Shown: piece by piece, positions 21,626-52,224 of the stretch
Position numbering within the stretch: position 1 is the stretch's first letter
Layout: every line of letters starts with the position of its first letter
NCBI RefSeq assembly: GCF_020662345.1
Contig: NZ_VMOA01000025.1
Coordinates: 1-64,000 of the forward strand
Direction: 5' to 3'
Length of the DNA: 64,000 nucleotides
DNA from: Methylobacterium sp. W2
Lineage (GTDB): Bacteria > Pseudomonadota > Alphaproteobacteria > Rhizobiales > Beijerinckiaceae
Made by a program: the position numbers and the translations under genes
Notes under the pieces: generated by a model
The model's database searches: none
What the model was told of the DNA's origin: nothing
The model's input: only the letters and a program-made list of their open reading frames with translations

Positions 21626-21671
21626 CGTCTCTCGACGGTGGCGGTTTCCGATGAATTGCCCGTCGGGTCAA
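21626..21671 (-). promoter_or_regulatory. late element A (promoter-like, leftward)
   Basis: On the minus strand this is TTGACCCGACGGGCAA, 24 bases, GAGACG. The first 16 bases are identical at 38925-38940 and 49004-49019, and GAGACG recurs at the same distance. TTGACC is a good -35, but the -10 position reads GAAACC, which is not canonical, so an activator or unusual polymerase contact may be needed. It precedes the tail-lysis unit. Confidence 0.7.
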
Positions 21672-21700
21672 GTGGTAAAAGATTGGTCTTCGTAGGCTGG

Positions 21701-37852: not shown

Positions 37853-38713
37853 TTATCGAGCGGACCCGCGGGTGCCGTACGTCTTGGCGAGCCACGCATC
37901 GATCTCCGCATCGGGAGACGAGGGCGCAGCTCCACCGGTGACCGGCTTCGCGGGGGCGGGGGCGGAGGGGGTTCGGTTGGGTTTTGCCAGGGTCAGGCGA
38001 TGTTCGAGCGCGCCCACGGCCTTGGCGGCCTGGATCGGGCTCATCCCGTTGAGCTTCGCCAGCTCGGCGGGGTTCTTGGCGAGGTAATAGGCGAGGAGGC
38101 CGCCTTTCTCGCTGTCGACGACGAGTTCGGAGACGTGGGGCTTCACCTCATGCTCTGCGGCCGCCTTCAGGACCTTGTCGGCGTCGGGAATCGCTTCCCG
38201 AACGTCGTCGAGCTTGTCGTTGAAGGCGTCCATCGCCTCGCGCTTGGCCTGCGCGGTCCGGGTCGAGGCCTGCGCCTCGCGATCGGCAATCCGCTGCTCG
38301 GCCAGAGCCTGACGCACGTCGTACTGACGCTGCGCCCGCTCATAGGCGAGGTAATCGTCGAAATCGGTTTCCTTCGGAGCAGCACCGATCTCGGCTTCGA
38401 TGGCCTTGGCACGGTCGCCGCTGTCGCCCACGGGCGCACTGCGGGTTGCGAGCTCGGCTTCGAGGCGCGCGATCTTCTCCTGCATCCGGTGAATGCCGGA
38501 CCGTTTCTTGGGCTTGTCCTCGCCGCCCTCTTCCTCGCCCTCGGGCTTCGGAGCGGGAGCGGCAGGTTCGGCCGGGTCTTTCCCTGGCGTCGCGGCAGGA
38601 GCGTCACCCTCGGCCGGCTGGCCGGGAATGGAAGCGTCCACCGCTTCCGAGGTCTCTGCGCCTGCAGCCTGCGCTTCCGCTGGCCCGCCAAGCACGATCA
38701 GGTCCTCGTCCAT
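37853..38713 (-). CDS. scaffolding protein
   Basis: The 286-aa protein is Ala/Pro/Glu-rich and acidic in its first 70 residues, then helical with charged heptads (IHRMQEKIARLEAELATR) and ends with a short basic motif (WLAKTYGTRGSAR). Position between portal-side genes and coat, size and composition agree with P22 gp8-type scaffolds that guide procapsid assembly and then exit. It is the first gene after late element B. Confidence 0.75.
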   Translation of the reverse strand: MDEDLIVLGGPAEAQAAGAETSEAVDASIPGQPAEGDAPAATPGKDPAEPAAPAPKPEGEEEGGEDKPKKRSGIHRMQEKIARLEAELATRSAPVGDSGDRAKAIEAEIGAAPKETDFDDYLAYERAQRQYDVRQALAEQRIADREAQASTRTAQAKREAMDAFNDKLDDVREAIPDADKVLKAAAEHEVKPHVSELVVDSEKGGLLAYYLAKNPAELAKLNGMSPIQAAKAVGALEHRLTLAKPNRTPSAPAPAKPVTGGAAPSSPDAEIDAWLAKTYGTRGSAR

Positions 38714-38728
38714 GTGTGTCGTCCATAG

Positions 38729-38759
38729 AAAAACCCGCCACGCGCGAGCGGGACGGGTT
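38729..38759 (-). terminator. rho-independent terminator between late element B and scaffold
   Basis: On the minus strand AACCCG/CCCGC pair with GCGGG/CGGGTT alternatives and are followed by TTTTT at once. It would end a leader of about 150-180 bases from element B, 16 bases before the scaffold start. Confidence 0.7.
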
Positions 38760-38893
38760 GGGGCATCATCGCGGCCTGCGCGGATCGCTGGCCTGCGTGA
38801 AGGGGAACGGACGCGCGTCTTCGGCCGCGGGAGGCGGCGGCGCGTCGGTCAAAAGATGGAAAGGGGTGCGGACGGAGCCTGTTGCGGCTCGCG

Positions 38894-38940
38894 CGTCTCG
38901 CGACGGATAGCTAATGCGCGGAGTTTGCCCGTCGGGTCAA
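38894..38940 (-). promoter_or_regulatory. late element B (promoter-like, leftward)
   Basis: Minus strand: TTGACCCGACGGGCAA, 25 bases, GAGACG (one base longer than copies A and C). At the -10 position it has GCATTA followed by GCTATCC, a better AT-rich block than in A or C. It precedes the scaffold-capsid-ejection unit and borders cargo bay B. Confidence 0.7.
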
Positions 38941-39391
38941 GCTGGAAGTGCCGTTGTTACAAATCCGATAGCCGGCCTCGTGCGCTTCTTACCCCCAGCC
39001 GACCCTCGGAAGGTCGGCTTCCAGGCTATTGAGGCCAAGGCCGACGACCGGGATGGGTCGCAAACGGACGCTCACTTTTTGCTCCGAAGCGAACGCTCCG
39101 CCTTCGATCCAGCCTGGTTGTCGAGGCCGCAGCAAGCCCTTCCTGGAAGCGGCCATTAGTCGTTCGTCCGACAGCTTCGGCTGATGGTGAGGAGTTCAAG
39201 TTCACCACCGGTCTACAAGCAGACTTTCCGCTGCCCGCCCATTCTCGATTTAAAGGCGGCTCTCTTGTTAAATCTAAATAGTCCCGTCTACACCCTAATA
39301 GTCAACATGCCATCCGCAGTTGACAGCACCAGTTTCCCGTTGAAATATTCAGGAGCTTCCATGATTCGAAGGAAGCAGTAGGGAGCGTGCC
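38941..39391. other. non-coding left part of cargo bay B
   Basis: About 450 bases between late element B and the RiPP precursor. Composition shifts from GC-rich to AT-rich at about 39150. A 65-codon frame at 39184-39381 lacks a good ribosome site. The AT-rich 39240-39380 part probably contains the cassette's promoter, but no boxes stand out. Confidence 0.4.
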
Positions 39392-39568
39392 ATGACTGAA
39401 ATAAATGCAAACTCGGATGGCAACGTACACATCGAAAAGAAGGGCGACAAAATAATCATAACTATTCCAGTTGATGATGTCCTTAAGGGAACGAAGGTTG
39501 AGGAGGGAAAACTTCTGGATTTTTGCAACTGTTCCAGTGTGCTCGGGGCCGTCGCCTCGTTTATCTAA
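39392..39568 (+). CDS. putative RiPP precursor peptide
   Basis: The 58-aa peptide has a charged leader with an alternating hydrophobic stretch (DKIIITIPVDDVLKG, residues 19-33), then EEGKLLDF and a short C-terminal part CNCSSVLGAVASFI with cysteines at 45 and 47. Length, a polar leader plus a small Cys/Ser/Gly-rich core, and a radical SAM/SPASM gene immediately after fit a ribosomally made, modified peptide. GGGAG lies six bases before ATG. The core boundary and modification are not known; it matches no class I can name. Confidence 0.65.
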   Translation: MTEINANSDGNVHIEKKGDKIIITIPVDDVLKGTKVEEGKLLDFCNCSSVLGAVASFI

Positions 39569-39575
39569 GTAGCCA

Positions 39576-39604
39576 GCCACGGTCGAGAGACCGTGGCGTT
39601 TTTA
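39576..39604 (+). terminator. attenuator between precursor and maturase genes
   Basis: A perfect 9-bp stem, GCCACGGTC with GACCGTGGC and a GAGA tetraloop, is followed by GTTTTTA. It sits eight bases after the precursor stop and before the radical SAM start, so it would give excess precursor message over maturase message, a common RiPP arrangement. Confidence 0.75.
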
Positions 39605-39618
39605 CTTTGGAGAGAAGC

Positions 39619-40980
39619 ATGTGGCAGTTCCCGCACGAGAATTACATCTACGATGGCATGCGAGGAGACTTGATACGCGCTGACGCTGGCGTAATTTCAT
39701 CATTGAGATCGCATATTGAGGCGAACCCAGATGCAGAACTAGAGATAAACGGAATAATTTATGGAAAGGCACGAAAAGAAAATATGAGGCCAGCTCTGAA
39801 GGGTGGGCAAACAGACCCTGTAACCATAAAAGTATCGATTACTGAACAGTGCAACCTAGTATGTGGCTATTGTCCTTACCCAGAAAATGATGCTCGTGGG
39901 CATTCGCCTTTTGGTTCGGGTCTTCCGCAGGAGCGCCTGGATAAGGCAACAGAGTTCGCAATCTCTCATTTGAGCAGCAGGACGGCACTTTGTTTCTATG
40001 GGGGCGAGCCGCTTTACCGGTTCAAAGACATTGCGGCGATTGTATCAAAAGTAGAGAAAGCTCGATCTGACTGGTCGGGGGTTATTGCTCTCACAACTAA
40101 TATGACACTCTGCTCAGATAAGATTGCAAATTATCTTATCGATAGACGGGCTATAATTCTTGTAAGTTGCGACGGGCCCAAAGAAATCAATGATCGTCAT
40201 CGGCCAACTCACAACGGCATGGGCACATTTGACAAAATTATGGCGAACATGGCTCGCTTTAAAGCGTTGGATGAGGCATATTACCGTGAATGTATAGGTA
40301 TTAATTGCGTTGTGACGGGCTGCGACTTCGACGAGCTGGACAATTTCTTTGCAACAGAATTTGGGGAAATCAAGCACATTCGCTTCTCAATTGCGTCCAA
40401 CTCCGGCGGCAGCATGCATGTCGATGGCAACACTATCCGCGACGAGCTGTTTGATTGGGCAGAGCGAGTTATACTGACCGATGAGGTTGAAAGTCTAAGA
40501 CGACGTCCTCTATTGCGTGACTTCATCAAGAACTATCTTCACCCTGTCGTCGAGCGTAAAAGCGTTCAAAACGAACGGAAAGGGTTCACCTCGTGCTCTC
40601 CTGGGGAACGCCTATACATCAACACGGACGGTTCCGTCGGTGTATGCGAAAGAACGGAGGGTCTTCAGATTGGAGATATTTCTAAGCGCAGCGAGGTGGA
40701 CACAGACGGGGTCGCAATCAGCTTCGCCGACATGCTTGAGAATAGATGCAAATCATGTTTCGCAGCACCCGCCTGCTCTGTATGTTACGCCGTGATCTGG
40801 GATGGAGCGATGCTATCTCATGATAGATTGAACAAATACTGTTCATCGTTCCGTGGAAACCTAATTCGCAGGCTATCTATCTACGCTAAAGCAAGGGAAA
40901 AGCATGGAGGGGCAGAGTTCGACGCATTAGTGAGAGAGGTTGCCGGAGACAATTCGCCGATTTTTGACGAGATCGAGTAA
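39619..40980 (+). CDS. radical SAM/SPASM peptide maturase
   Basis: The 453-aa enzyme has a short N-terminal region (to about 68), then the radical SAM cluster motif CNLVCGYC with Cys 78, 82 and 85, and GGEP shortly after (FYGGEPLYRF). The C-terminal SPASM region has CSPGERLYINTDGSVGVC and CKSCFAAPACSVCY, enough cysteines for auxiliary iron-sulfur clusters. Such enzymes form thioether, C-C or related crosslinks in precursor peptides. The first part may hold a leader-binding fold. ATG 39619 follows GGAGAGA. No protease, transporter or immunity gene accompanies it. AT-rich compared with the phage. Confidence 0.85.
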   Translation: MWQFPHENYIYDGMRGDLIRADAGVISSLRSHIEANPDAELEINGIIYGKARKENMRPALKGGQTDPVTIKVSITEQCNLVCGYCPYPENDARGHSPFGSGLPQERLDKATEFAISHLSSRTALCFYGGEPLYRFKDIAAIVSKVEKARSDWSGVIALTTNMTLCSDKIANYLIDRRAIILVSCDGPKEINDRHRPTHNGMGTFDKIMANMARFKALDEAYYRECIGINCVVTGCDFDELDNFFATEFGEIKHIRFSIASNSGGSMHVDGNTIRDELFDWAERVILTDEVESLRRRPLLRDFIKNYLHPVVERKSVQNERKGFTSCSPGERLYINTDGSVGVCERTEGLQIGDISKRSEVDTDGVAISFADMLENRCKSCFAAPACSVCYAVIWDGAMLSHDRLNKYCSSFRGNLIRRLSIYAKAREKHGGAEFDALVREVAGDNSPIFDEIE

Positions 40981-41262
40981 TCAGACCTCAAGTTCCGATT
41001 CGGGGCCCAAATCAGCAAGACGCAGGCGGCAGGCGCCCTACGTGCCTGCGACATCGCCGGTCTGACAAACGGTCATAGCACCACTAGAGAGTCTTTCAAA
41101 GGCGGACACTACCTCCGGTCGCACGCCAGTAGAGTGTGTCACTACTTTAGACCTAGAAAGCTTGCTGCTTACGGGGTCCCTGACGCGAGGAGATGGGACC
41201 CTACTGTCGTTCATCCACCCATTGCAGACCTGGACAGGATATCAAGTATCAGGGTTGTAACG
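40981..41262. other. gap between RiPP cassette and portal unit
   Basis: About 280 bases with no convincing gene. The 3' end of the leftward portal unit and of the rightward RiPP cassette converge here, but no clear terminator hairpin with T-run was found. Confidence 0.4.
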
Positions 41263-41709
41263 CTAGGCCGGGCCGATGCGAACACGCCCGGCCAGATCGA
41301 AACGGTGAACAGCGCCACTCACAAGTTGCGCGGGCATAACCAGCCCAGGCGTCCCTGCCGTCTTCAGCCCTGCGATATTGATGGCTGAGAGATCGGTGGT
41401 GATGCGTCCGACCAGGTATGTCCCAGCGCTCGGATAGGTGATGTTCGCCGTGTGGTTCGTGACATTGATGTCGGCCGCAGCCGAAGCAAACGGGATGGGA
41501 TGGCCCAGGATACGCAGGGCCCCGGTCGCCGCCGTCGTGAAAGTCGGAGTAAAGGTCAACGTGATTTCGATATCGGCCATAAGGCCGTCGGTGATCATCA
41601 CTCCGGTCTGCGTTGCGTAGGTTACCGCCCAATCACCAGGGGTGAGCGGGACGATCGACGGCAGGAACGGAAGGACCGATTGCAGAGCACCGCCAAGGGA
41701 TTTGATCAT
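41263..41709 (-). CDS. head-region protein of unknown function
   Basis: The 148-aa protein is beta-rich and Thr/Ala-rich, from VPLTPGDWAVTYATQTGVMITDG to a C-terminal AGRVRIGPA. Composition resembles capsid decoration or head-fibre proteins. It starts two bases after its neighbour and ends the portal unit at the edge of cargo bay B. Confidence 0.55.
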   Translation of the reverse strand: MIKSLGGALQSVLPFLPSIVPLTPGDWAVTYATQTGVMITDGLMADIEITLTFTPTFTTAATGALRILGHPIPFASAAADINVTNHTANITYPSAGTYLVGRITTDLSAINIAGLKTAGTPGLVMPAQLVSGAVHRFDLAGRVRIGPA

Positions 41710-48973: not shown

Positions 48974-49019
48974 CGTCTCGGGACAGTGGTTTTCTGCAAC
49001 GGATTGCCCGTCGGGTCAA
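48974..49019 (-). promoter_or_regulatory. late element C (promoter-like, leftward)
   Basis: Minus strand TTGACCCGACGGGCAA, 24 bases, GAGACG: same length as copy A. The -10 position reads CAGAAA, again not canonical. It heads the unit of tRNA-Arg, small genes, integrase, terminase and portal, and borders cargo bay C. Confidence 0.7.
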
Positions 49020-49089
49020 GAGTGCTCTGTATGGATTACGATGAATGCGTATAAGCGGCTGCGAGCATTCAGCAGATAGGGGTTCACGC

Positions 49090-51102: not shown

Positions 51103-52224
51103 ATGACCGATCTCCCCGCCGAGCACGAGGCGATCGACGCTTCTACAGTGGAGCTGCCCCCCGAAGAAGCTTCAACATTCGAAGGCACTGATTCCAGTGA
51201 ACCGGTGCCACCGGTTGATATCATTGCATATAATGAAGTTCGGTCCTGCGCCGATCTGTATCGTCTTTTCTCAAGTGGAAGAATGGAAATACAGCCCGAT
51301 TTTCAGCGCGATGTTGTGTGGAAGCGAGAAGAAAGAACTCGTTTTATTGATTCATTAGTTAAACAGCTACCAATTCCCAGCATGTGTTTTAGCTTGGATC
51401 CAAAAACTCAGCGCTGGAAGGTCATCGACGGTCTTCAGCGCATGACATCAATTACAGATTTTCTTGGAAAAACGGAGTGGCAACTTTCATCTCTTGACGA
51501 CATCCACCCAATTCTACGCGGAAACACAAATACCGCCTTGAAAATGGGCCCCGAGGATCATTCAATACTCTACTCTTCCGTCGAAAATGTAACGATACCA
51601 GTCACGGTGATACGTTGCGACTACACAAAACGCGAGCATATGCGTTACCTCTTTACAATATTCCATCGCCTTAACTCCGGTGGAGTACGACTAAATAATC
51701 AAGAAATAAGGAATTGCATTTACACAGGCGCATTCAATGACGCACTTAAGGATTTTGATAACAAGCACGCTGATTGGCAGGTAGTAAAAGCTCGGATTTG
51801 GGGCTCAGTAAATAGGTTCCGATCCGTTGAGATACTACTGCGTATTCTTGCATTTTCCGAGCGTCTTGAATCTTATGAAGGGAATTTGGCGGATTTCTTG
51901 AATCATTATATGCACGATCACGCGGAAGCATCCCCTGAAATAGTTGCAGAAAAAATAGCGAAACTTAAGAAAGCCGCAACGATAACCAGAACAACCTTGG
52001 AAGATCAGTCAGGCAAACTGTCCCTGGCAATAATTGAAGCTGTCCTTGTGGCATCAGTTGAGCATTCTCTAGCGCTTTCAACAATATCAAAAGAAACTTT
52101 GAACACTAAGTATTACGCTATGCTGAGCATGCCAGCTTTCGCGGAAGGCGCTAGATACGCGGTATCGAGCGTCGAAAACGTTCAGCGACGGTTGACCGAA
52201 GCCACTGAAGCGTTTGGGCGCTGA
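51103..52224 (+). CDS. DUF262 (GmrSD N-terminal-like) protein
   Basis: The 373-aa protein has the DUF262 ParB/Srx-like pattern: MEIQPDFQRDVVWKREERTRF (about 60-80), WKVIDGLQRMTSI (with the DGxQR motif, about 105-117) and IFHRLNSGGVRLNNQEIRNC (about 186-205). The GmrSD family uses this domain for NTP-dependent cutting or sensing of modified DNA; here no DUF1524 HNH half is fused. A HEPN gene follows three bases later. AT-rich, rightward cargo. GGAGGA precedes ATG 51103. Confidence 0.85.
   Translation: MTDLPAEHEAIDASTVELPPEEASTFEGTDSSEPVPPVDIIAYNEVRSCADLYRLFSSGRMEIQPDFQRDVVWKREERTRFIDSLVKQLPIPSMCFSLDPKTQRWKVIDGLQRMTSITDFLGKTEWQLSSLDDIHPILRGNTNTALKMGPEDHSILYSSVENVTIPVTVIRCDYTKREHMRYLFTIFHRLNSGGVRLNNQEIRNCIYTGAFNDALKDFDNKHADWQVVKARIWGSVNRFRSVEILLRILAFSERLESYEGNLADFLNHYMHDHAEASPEIVAEKIAKLKKAATITRTTLEDQSGKLSLAIIEAVLVASVEHSLALSTISKETLNTKYYAMLSMPAFAEGARYAVSSVENVQRRLTEATEAFGR

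Follow-up and report, generated by a model that had tools for sequence, protein, structure and literature searches.

A putative radical SAM/SPASM peptide-modification cassette in an exchangeable cargo slot of a Methylobacterium prophage

Sactipeptides carry a bond from a cysteine sulfur to an alpha-carbon, and ranthipeptides carry a bond from a cysteine sulfur to a carbon other than the alpha-carbon. RumMC is a sactipeptide maturase, and the lachnocin maturase and PapB are ranthipeptide maturases. SPASM domains have seven cysteines and usually end in CX3C. CteB, a maturase of solved structure, has a three-domain plan in which the leader joins the RRE as a beta-strand, and its Aux I cluster has an open site (PMC6231123). 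Modified peptides are also carried by prophages; sublancin 168 is a glycocin of the temperate phage SPbeta with its own immunity gene, sunI (PMC6391423).

The window (the whole 64,000-nucleotide stretch of Methylobacterium sp. W2 contig NZ_VMOA01000025.1 that was analyzed) contains a prophage with a two-gene cassette. An initial annotation had described a small gene with two cysteines near its end and a polar leader, a GAGA-loop terminator, and a radical SAM enzyme with CxxxCxxC and SPASM cysteines, which it read as a modified-peptide system carried as phage cargo. The two genes and the terminator are present as described, and comparison with relative phages bears out the cargo assignment by presence and absence of the block. 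The modified-peptide reading fared unevenly: the enzyme side agrees with it in maturase family scores, tree position, and Foldseek match to CteB, while no homologue of the 58-aa candidate precursor was found in the sets searched.

The prophage slot

Genes around the cassette encode portal, major head, scaffold, large terminase, head closure, DNA-ejection-like, and integrase proteins. Phages of Salmonella, Vibrio, and Escherichia, which we take to be P22-like, have matches to the portal (34% identity among the matches listed). At the start of the window, 70% of the first 3.5 kb aligns to a Methylobacterium bullatum record at 94% identity. The same head module was found in eight other genomes of the genus using the scaffold protein as query. 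Relative to the head genes, the cassette is read in the opposite direction, a point absent from the initial annotation, and it is enclosed by the following features.

37853 to 38713, minus strand: flanking head scaffolding gene (phrog_8865, E 9.1e-43)
38952 to 41260, no strand: exchanged cargo block (moron), bordered by the scaffold gene on one side and a small head-module gene on the other (blastn against phage L202)
41263 to 41709, minus strand: flanking small head-module ORF (93% identity in L202)

The cargo block is about 2.3 kb of low-GC DNA inside a phage of about 0.67 GC; the whole gap at 38714-41262 has a GC of 0.521, and the flank has 0.675. The closest relative phage, L202, has a coat 98%, a terminase (TerL) 99%, and a portal 95% identical to those of the window. 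Homology to L202 in blastn ends at 38951 and restarts at 41261, and in between L202 has an unrelated 929-bp block. The slot in L202 holds a low-GC 211-aa ORF (L202:3836-4471) in the same orientation as the cassette; an inner start of this ORF resembles a signal peptide, and neither PHROG nor Pfam gave a match. Only 288 bp lie between scaffold and portal in phage L205, and the slot gaps of six other relative phages range from 733 to 5342 bp and contain other ORFs. In all eight relative phages (8/8), the 11-12-kb regions gave no match to the enzyme at E 1e-4. Replacement of the block in L202 and the short 288-bp gap of L205 fit the behavior of a moron slot.

Large ORFs (1360 and 676 aa) occupy the slot in L204:3640-8981 and L207:3272-6166, and therefore the site accepts very different content.

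Other elements were seen in the same prophage. A search with 15-base exact seeds gave no att repeat at tRNA-Arg. The 17-mer TTGCCCGTCGGGTCAAG has three exact copies in the genome, all in the window (38925, 21656, and 49004), and each lies 5' of a unit on the minus strand (head genes, a 400-aa ORF, and tRNA-Arg). It was considered as a mark of the cargo boundary and rejected because it is also in L205, with its 288-bp gap; a phage regulatory element is the more likely reading. A bipartite element at these sites (38887-38941, 21656-21672, 49004-49020) reads CTTGACCCGACGGGCAA on the minus strand, then GAGACG, and measures 47-48 bp end to end. It is found whole or in part in the eight relative phages, in the same gap, and its full pattern occurs in 21 IMG/VR contig stretches; it is possibly a phage-wide promoter or operator. 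Another low-GC island, near the phage replication genes, has an ORF (51103-52224) with a GmrSD restriction-endonuclease N-terminal domain (Pfam E 1.4e-25), which is a possible defence gene.

The enzyme and its relatives

The second gene of the cassette is preceded by GGAGAG 4 nt 5' of its ATG at 39619, and it encodes the following features.

39619 to 40980, plus strand: predicted radical SAM/SPASM peptide maturase, 453 aa (Pfam, NCBIfam, profile, and structure model)
39619 to 39762, plus strand: short N-terminal leader-recognition-like region (model with strands at 8-12 and 17-21 and helices at 23-35 and 37-48)
39850 to 39873, plus strand: radical SAM cluster motif CNLVCGYC, residues 78-85, C78xxxC82xxC85 (translation and alignment)
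40594 to 40842, plus strand: SPASM cysteines C326 to C408, CX11GX4C ... CX2CX5CX2C ... C (alignment)

Cluster cysteines were compared in an alignment (A3) of the window enzyme and 52 loci hand-picked from 72 eligible. Radical SAM cysteines C78, C82, and C85 are each kept in 52/53 rows, and the seven SPASM cysteines (C326, C343, C377, C380, C386, C389, and C408) are invariant in 53/53 rows. The enzyme scores 45.0 bits against Pfam Radical_SAM PF04055 (cut-off 29.5) and 15.4 bits against SPASM PF13186, which is under the cut-off of 21.5. Among NCBIfam families, CcpM (TIGR04068) scores highest, with 170.6 bits against a curated cut-off of 500, followed by RumMC, lachnocin, and PapB with 117.7, 108.2, and 99.3 bits (cut-offs 720, 550, and 340). 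The curated cut-off is missed for every family among the 25 NCBIfam rows listed. All 53 members of the alignment match the CcpM, RumMC, and lachnocin families at E 1e-30 or better.

Assignment to other radical SAM families was considered and rejected. A PADLOC match to the viperin family pVip (36.3 bits) is limited to the core, and its score is well exceeded by those of other families. Non-peptide SPASM families, including quinohemoprotein amine dehydrogenase maturation (88 bits) and anaerobic sulfatase maturase (67.4 bits), score below the peptide-maturase families. In its scores and on the tree, the enzyme falls with peptide maturases; clustering with non-peptide SPASM proteins is what the initial annotation had named as counting against its reading. 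We consider it highly probable that the enzyme is a peptide maturase.

Close relatives of the enzyme were found in none of the searches, and the relatives listed have 36% identity or less. None of the 110 other genomes of the genus has an enzyme match at E 1e-15, which places the enzyme in 1/111. Matches were present in 16 of 98 other relatives (best E 8.3e-17, 21-34% identity), in 8/384 other genomes of the same class at E 1e-12 (25-34% identity), and in 8/397 genomes of the same phylum at E 1e-14 (25-33% identity). Phages (32 records) and plasmids (113) gave matches of less than 60% identity, and 32% or less among the 30 rows shown for each. When genome and viral contigs were scanned with the enzyme protein alone, no match was confirmed; alignment-based scans gave 57 viral loci and at least 80 genome loci related to the enzyme at 21-36% identity.

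Phylogenetic analysis included 109 rows, namely the window protein and 108 of the 148 non-self loci with an enzyme match (bits >=66, length >=370). The enzyme forms a long branch of its own (1.78), basal to an 87-row group containing CcpM/lachnocin/RumMC-like enzymes and all 52 relatives of the alignment (SH-aLRT 91 and 90); none of the starred sets of up to half the rows contains it, which makes its exact place unsure. Of the 71 rows assigned to a named phylum, 46 are Bacillota. Metagenome-assembled genomes of Rhodobiaceae (L139) and Holosporales (L141) contain distant members of the enzyme group that are not close to the window enzyme on the tree.

The structure model of the enzyme has a mean pLDDT of 84.4 and a pTM of 0.85. 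CteB is the best match among solved structures by sequence profile (E 2.6e-58) and by Foldseek (5why, E 1.8e-16). Structural comparison agrees in part with the peptide-enzyme reading: CteB leads by Foldseek, and in VIA-align it has Z 26.3 with an rmsd of 4.7 over 394 residues starting from residue 1, but ChlB and the sulfatase maturase anSME tie with it there (Z 25.6-26.2), although their alignments start at residues 62-66. Among the 50 VIA-align rows listed, alignment from residue 1 is confined to CteB (two entries) and TigE. The N-terminal region, a candidate RRE with two strands and two helices at residues 8-48 within the full-length model, is shorter than the corresponding region of CteB and has a pLDDT of 81-90 for residues 1-40 and 54 for residues 41-50.

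The candidate precursor and the terminator

The region upstream of the enzyme has the following features.

39320 to 39349, plus strand: promoter-like site TTGACA-18-AATATT with TG before the -10 (consensus scan only)
39392 to 39568, plus strand: putative precursor peptide, 58 aa, with a leader at about residues 1-43 and a CxC core at about residues 44-58 (translation and codon score)
39524 to 39565, plus strand: putative core, Cys45-Asn-Cys47 and an 11-residue, mostly apolar tail SSVLGAVASFI (translation; predicted boundary)
39576 to 39603, plus strand: intrinsic terminator between precursor and enzyme, with a 9-bp stem, GAGA loop, and T5 (fold and motif)

The ATG of the 58-aa ORF is preceded by a ribosome-binding sequence, AGGGAG, at 39380-39385 (6 nt 5'). 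Residues 1-43 of the translation are largely polar and residues 48-58 are largely apolar, with C45-N-C47 between them; these two cysteines are the only ones in the peptide, and they lie close together in the candidate core. None of 2000 base shuffles reached the codon score of the ORF. A frame on the opposite strand has an equal score (0.197 vs 0.195 bits per codon), and the strand is therefore not settled by codon use. The single-sequence model of the peptide is poor (mean pLDDT 52, with residues 37-58 all below 50); it has a hairpin at residues 13-24 with strands at 13-17 and 20-24.

Homologues of the 58-aa peptide were found neither in phages, plasmids, or viral contigs (close relatives only) nor in the 110 other genomes of the genus, and no NCBIfam precursor family matched at E up to 1. 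Its sole NCBIfam match is a weak one of residues 6-44 to CBO2463_dom (E 0.0048). This domain, at first considered a known partner of CcpM, was dropped as an explanation after it was found in 3/50 genomes bearing related enzymes with no maturase nearby; by ORF reading, the three neighborhoods (3.2 kb each) are D-proline-reductase-type operons.

Comparison with 1764 small ORFs near related enzymes gave six top non-self matches that are all Cys-rich and upstream of an enzyme. Homology to clostridial precursors (MKKLGKK...AFACxC and KxQDGTLVAF-CxC) appeared suggestive on visual inspection but was rejected, as 10/60 Cys-fixed shuffles reach the same 8.4 bits and the matches disappear or drop when the cysteines are masked. 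With the same shuffle control, the peptide has no similarity beyond chance to CcpM-type precursor families. The initial annotation had named the lack of a homologous precursor beside homologous enzymes elsewhere as counting against its reading, and for this exact peptide the outcome goes against it.

Directly next to related enzymes, on either side, small Cys-rich ORFs are frequent (judged by eye, without a count or control), and therefore pairing of the 58-aa ORF with the enzyme is plausible. Reading of the ORF list gave no more convincing small ORF in the cargo block. Because no homologue was found, the substrate role is based on position and gene order, the cysteines, the ribosome-binding site, codon use, and the terminator. 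From these features, we judge the 58-aa ORF likely to be the substrate of the enzyme. Separately, an unverified 91-kb phage record from human faeces (L046) has an ORF for a 47-aa Cys-rich peptide upstream of a CteB-like enzyme, and we take this peptide to resemble a SCIFF precursor.

The terminator starts 7 nt 3' of the stop of the 58-aa ORF. Its hairpin (39576-39597) consists of GCCACGGTC-GAGA-GACCGTGGC and is followed by GTTTTTACTT; the 60-nt stretch has a folding energy of -24.8 kcal/mol (z -4.67), and 0/200 shuffles were equally stable. Such an arrangement is uncommon in relatives, which counts against the proposed system: a crude finder placed a terminator between precursor and enzyme in 3/27 loci vs 0.55 expected, the loci being chosen by hand and the wrong precursor ORF being taken for one of them (L124). 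The terminator of the cassette is clear but sits between its two genes, and the promoter-like site is at chance level (2 sites seen in the region vs 1.9 expected in a consensus scan). No Rfam match was found in 38700-41300 at E up to 1. The terminator probably acts as an attenuator that lets the precursor be made in excess.

Proposed function and comparison with known systems

Lysogenic conversion by a moron is the function that we favor on balance, with the 58-aa precursor and a CteB/CcpM-type maturase yielding a small thioether peptide from about residues 44-58. The cassette is probably expressed in the lysogen, given its orientation opposed to that of the head genes. Precursor output in the lysogen would be high and enzyme output lower owing to the intervening terminator. 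The short N-terminal domain would bind the leader; the contact is probably a beta-strand pairing that involves the strand-prone stretch NVHIEKKGDKIIITIP. A 5'-deoxyadenosyl radical from the C78/C82/C85 cluster would then take hydrogen from a core residue, and that residue would be bonded to the sulfur of Cys45 and Cys47 with the help of an auxiliary cluster that has an open site. The expected product is a peptide of about 15 residues with one or two thioether rings, in which one or both cysteines would be joined to residues of the apolar tail. It could serve the host or the prophage, perhaps in an antibacterial or superinfection role.

A thioether is the bond that we judge fairly likely. One cysteine just before the SPASM hairpin is found in both the window enzyme and CteB, and anSME sequences have more; this single cysteine is consistent with thioether chemistry without proving it, and an extra cysteine within the preceding nine residues in 17/53 rows indicates that the CteB-like pattern is not universal. 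The maturase could instead install a C-C link of the cyclophane type, for example from Phe44 to Asn46. Aromatic-X-X triplets are a cyclophane motif, which F44-C45-N46 fits, and the enzyme weakly matches YhhB, FxsB, GrrM, and XyeB. However, these families score 39.9-68.9 bits (FxsB 53, XyeB 39.9) vs 170.6 for CcpM, CteB is the nearest structure by Foldseek, and the peptide's only two cysteines are close together in the candidate core, which makes a C-C link quite doubtful. An unlikely alternative makes the 58-aa ORF an independent small protein (such as a regulator) or a non-gene, with a host or phage protein as the target of the enzyme. The missing homologue, the equal codon score on the opposite strand, and the weak match to CBO2463_dom, a family that sits beside genes other than maturases, would agree with such a role. 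The ribosome-binding sequence, the terminator just past the stop, the CxC near the end, and direct adjacency to the enzyme argue for a substrate, as does the lack of a better small ORF in the block; among the neighbor ORFs searched, a subset of the total, none encodes a protein known as a target of these enzymes.

Exporter, protease, and immunity genes were not recognised in the cargo block, as the initial annotation had stated. Its suggestion that the product may act inside the cell or use host functions draws little strength from this: a same-strand ABC ATPase within 4 kb is also missing from 49/74 related loci (crude motif test, contig ends included, on 74 of the best 80 genome-contig loci with bits >=85), and therefore a missing exporter says little about the site of action. 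The same count speaks against the cassette being a decayed, non-functional remnant of a system that once had exporter, protease, and immunity genes. Two genes with no recognised exporter and an enzyme confined to one genome of the genus could be read in that way, but both frames are intact, ten of ten cluster cysteines are kept, and the terminator and ribosome-binding sequences are intact. Decay is therefore very unlikely. The thioether-peptide moron that we prefer could be a new, phage-specific subclass of RiPP system in minimal two-gene form, with a structured, strand-forming leader, a shortened recognition domain, and an apolar thioether hairpin that acts inside the lysogen without export, protease, or immunity genes, for example in superinfection exclusion or at the membrane. 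This extension seems rather unlikely.

Should the pair function as proposed, it would extend a group with listed members mostly in Bacillota by an orphan maturase branch, and it would represent a peptide-modifying pair in a Methylobacterium phage whose exchangeable slot can be compared between near-identical phages. With two genes and a comparison phage (L202), the chemistry and the lysogen phenotype are easy to test.

CteB (5WGG/5WHY) is the top structure match by profile and Foldseek, with the N-terminal region covered. It differs in having only 20% identity to the window enzyme, in a longer N-terminal region (that of the window enzyme is about 30 residues shorter, with query residue 70 aligned to CteB residue 99), and in a SPASM domain ending in CX3C instead of CX2C. 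The highest-scoring family, CcpM, belongs to a group that shares CX2CX5CX2C and often has a Cys-rich small ORF upstream; the window enzyme falls well short of the family cut-off, its precursor is not similar beyond chance, and the pair is in an alphaproteobacterial phage, unlike the mostly Bacillota rows of the tree. RumMC, lachnocin, and PapB maturases are the next-best families; the window enzyme is far under their cut-offs, and the thioether type of its product is putative.

Phage-borne relatives of the enzyme were found among IMG/VR contigs, where CcpM-group enzymes lie 1.6 kb (one ORF) from terminase genes in L056, 0.6 kb from endolysin and holin genes in L059 (of the pair L059/L060), and 2.1 kb from a large terminase gene in L061. 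These enzymes are 25-26% identical to the window enzyme, and L059 also has ABC-transporter-like ORFs by reading. Two further ORFs upstream of the L061 enzyme could be unusual substrates. Sublancin 168 is likewise a phage-borne modified peptide; it is a glycocin accompanied by sunI (PMC6391423), whereas the present locus has a radical SAM enzyme and no recognised immunity gene. A literature search of open-licence papers found no published description of such a cassette. Both modified peptides from prophages and relatives of the enzyme from phages are already known, and the locus is not a new kind of system. Its novelty lies in the orphan position of the enzyme on the tree, the putative precursor for which no match was found, the minimal size of two genes, and the alphaproteobacterial phage setting.
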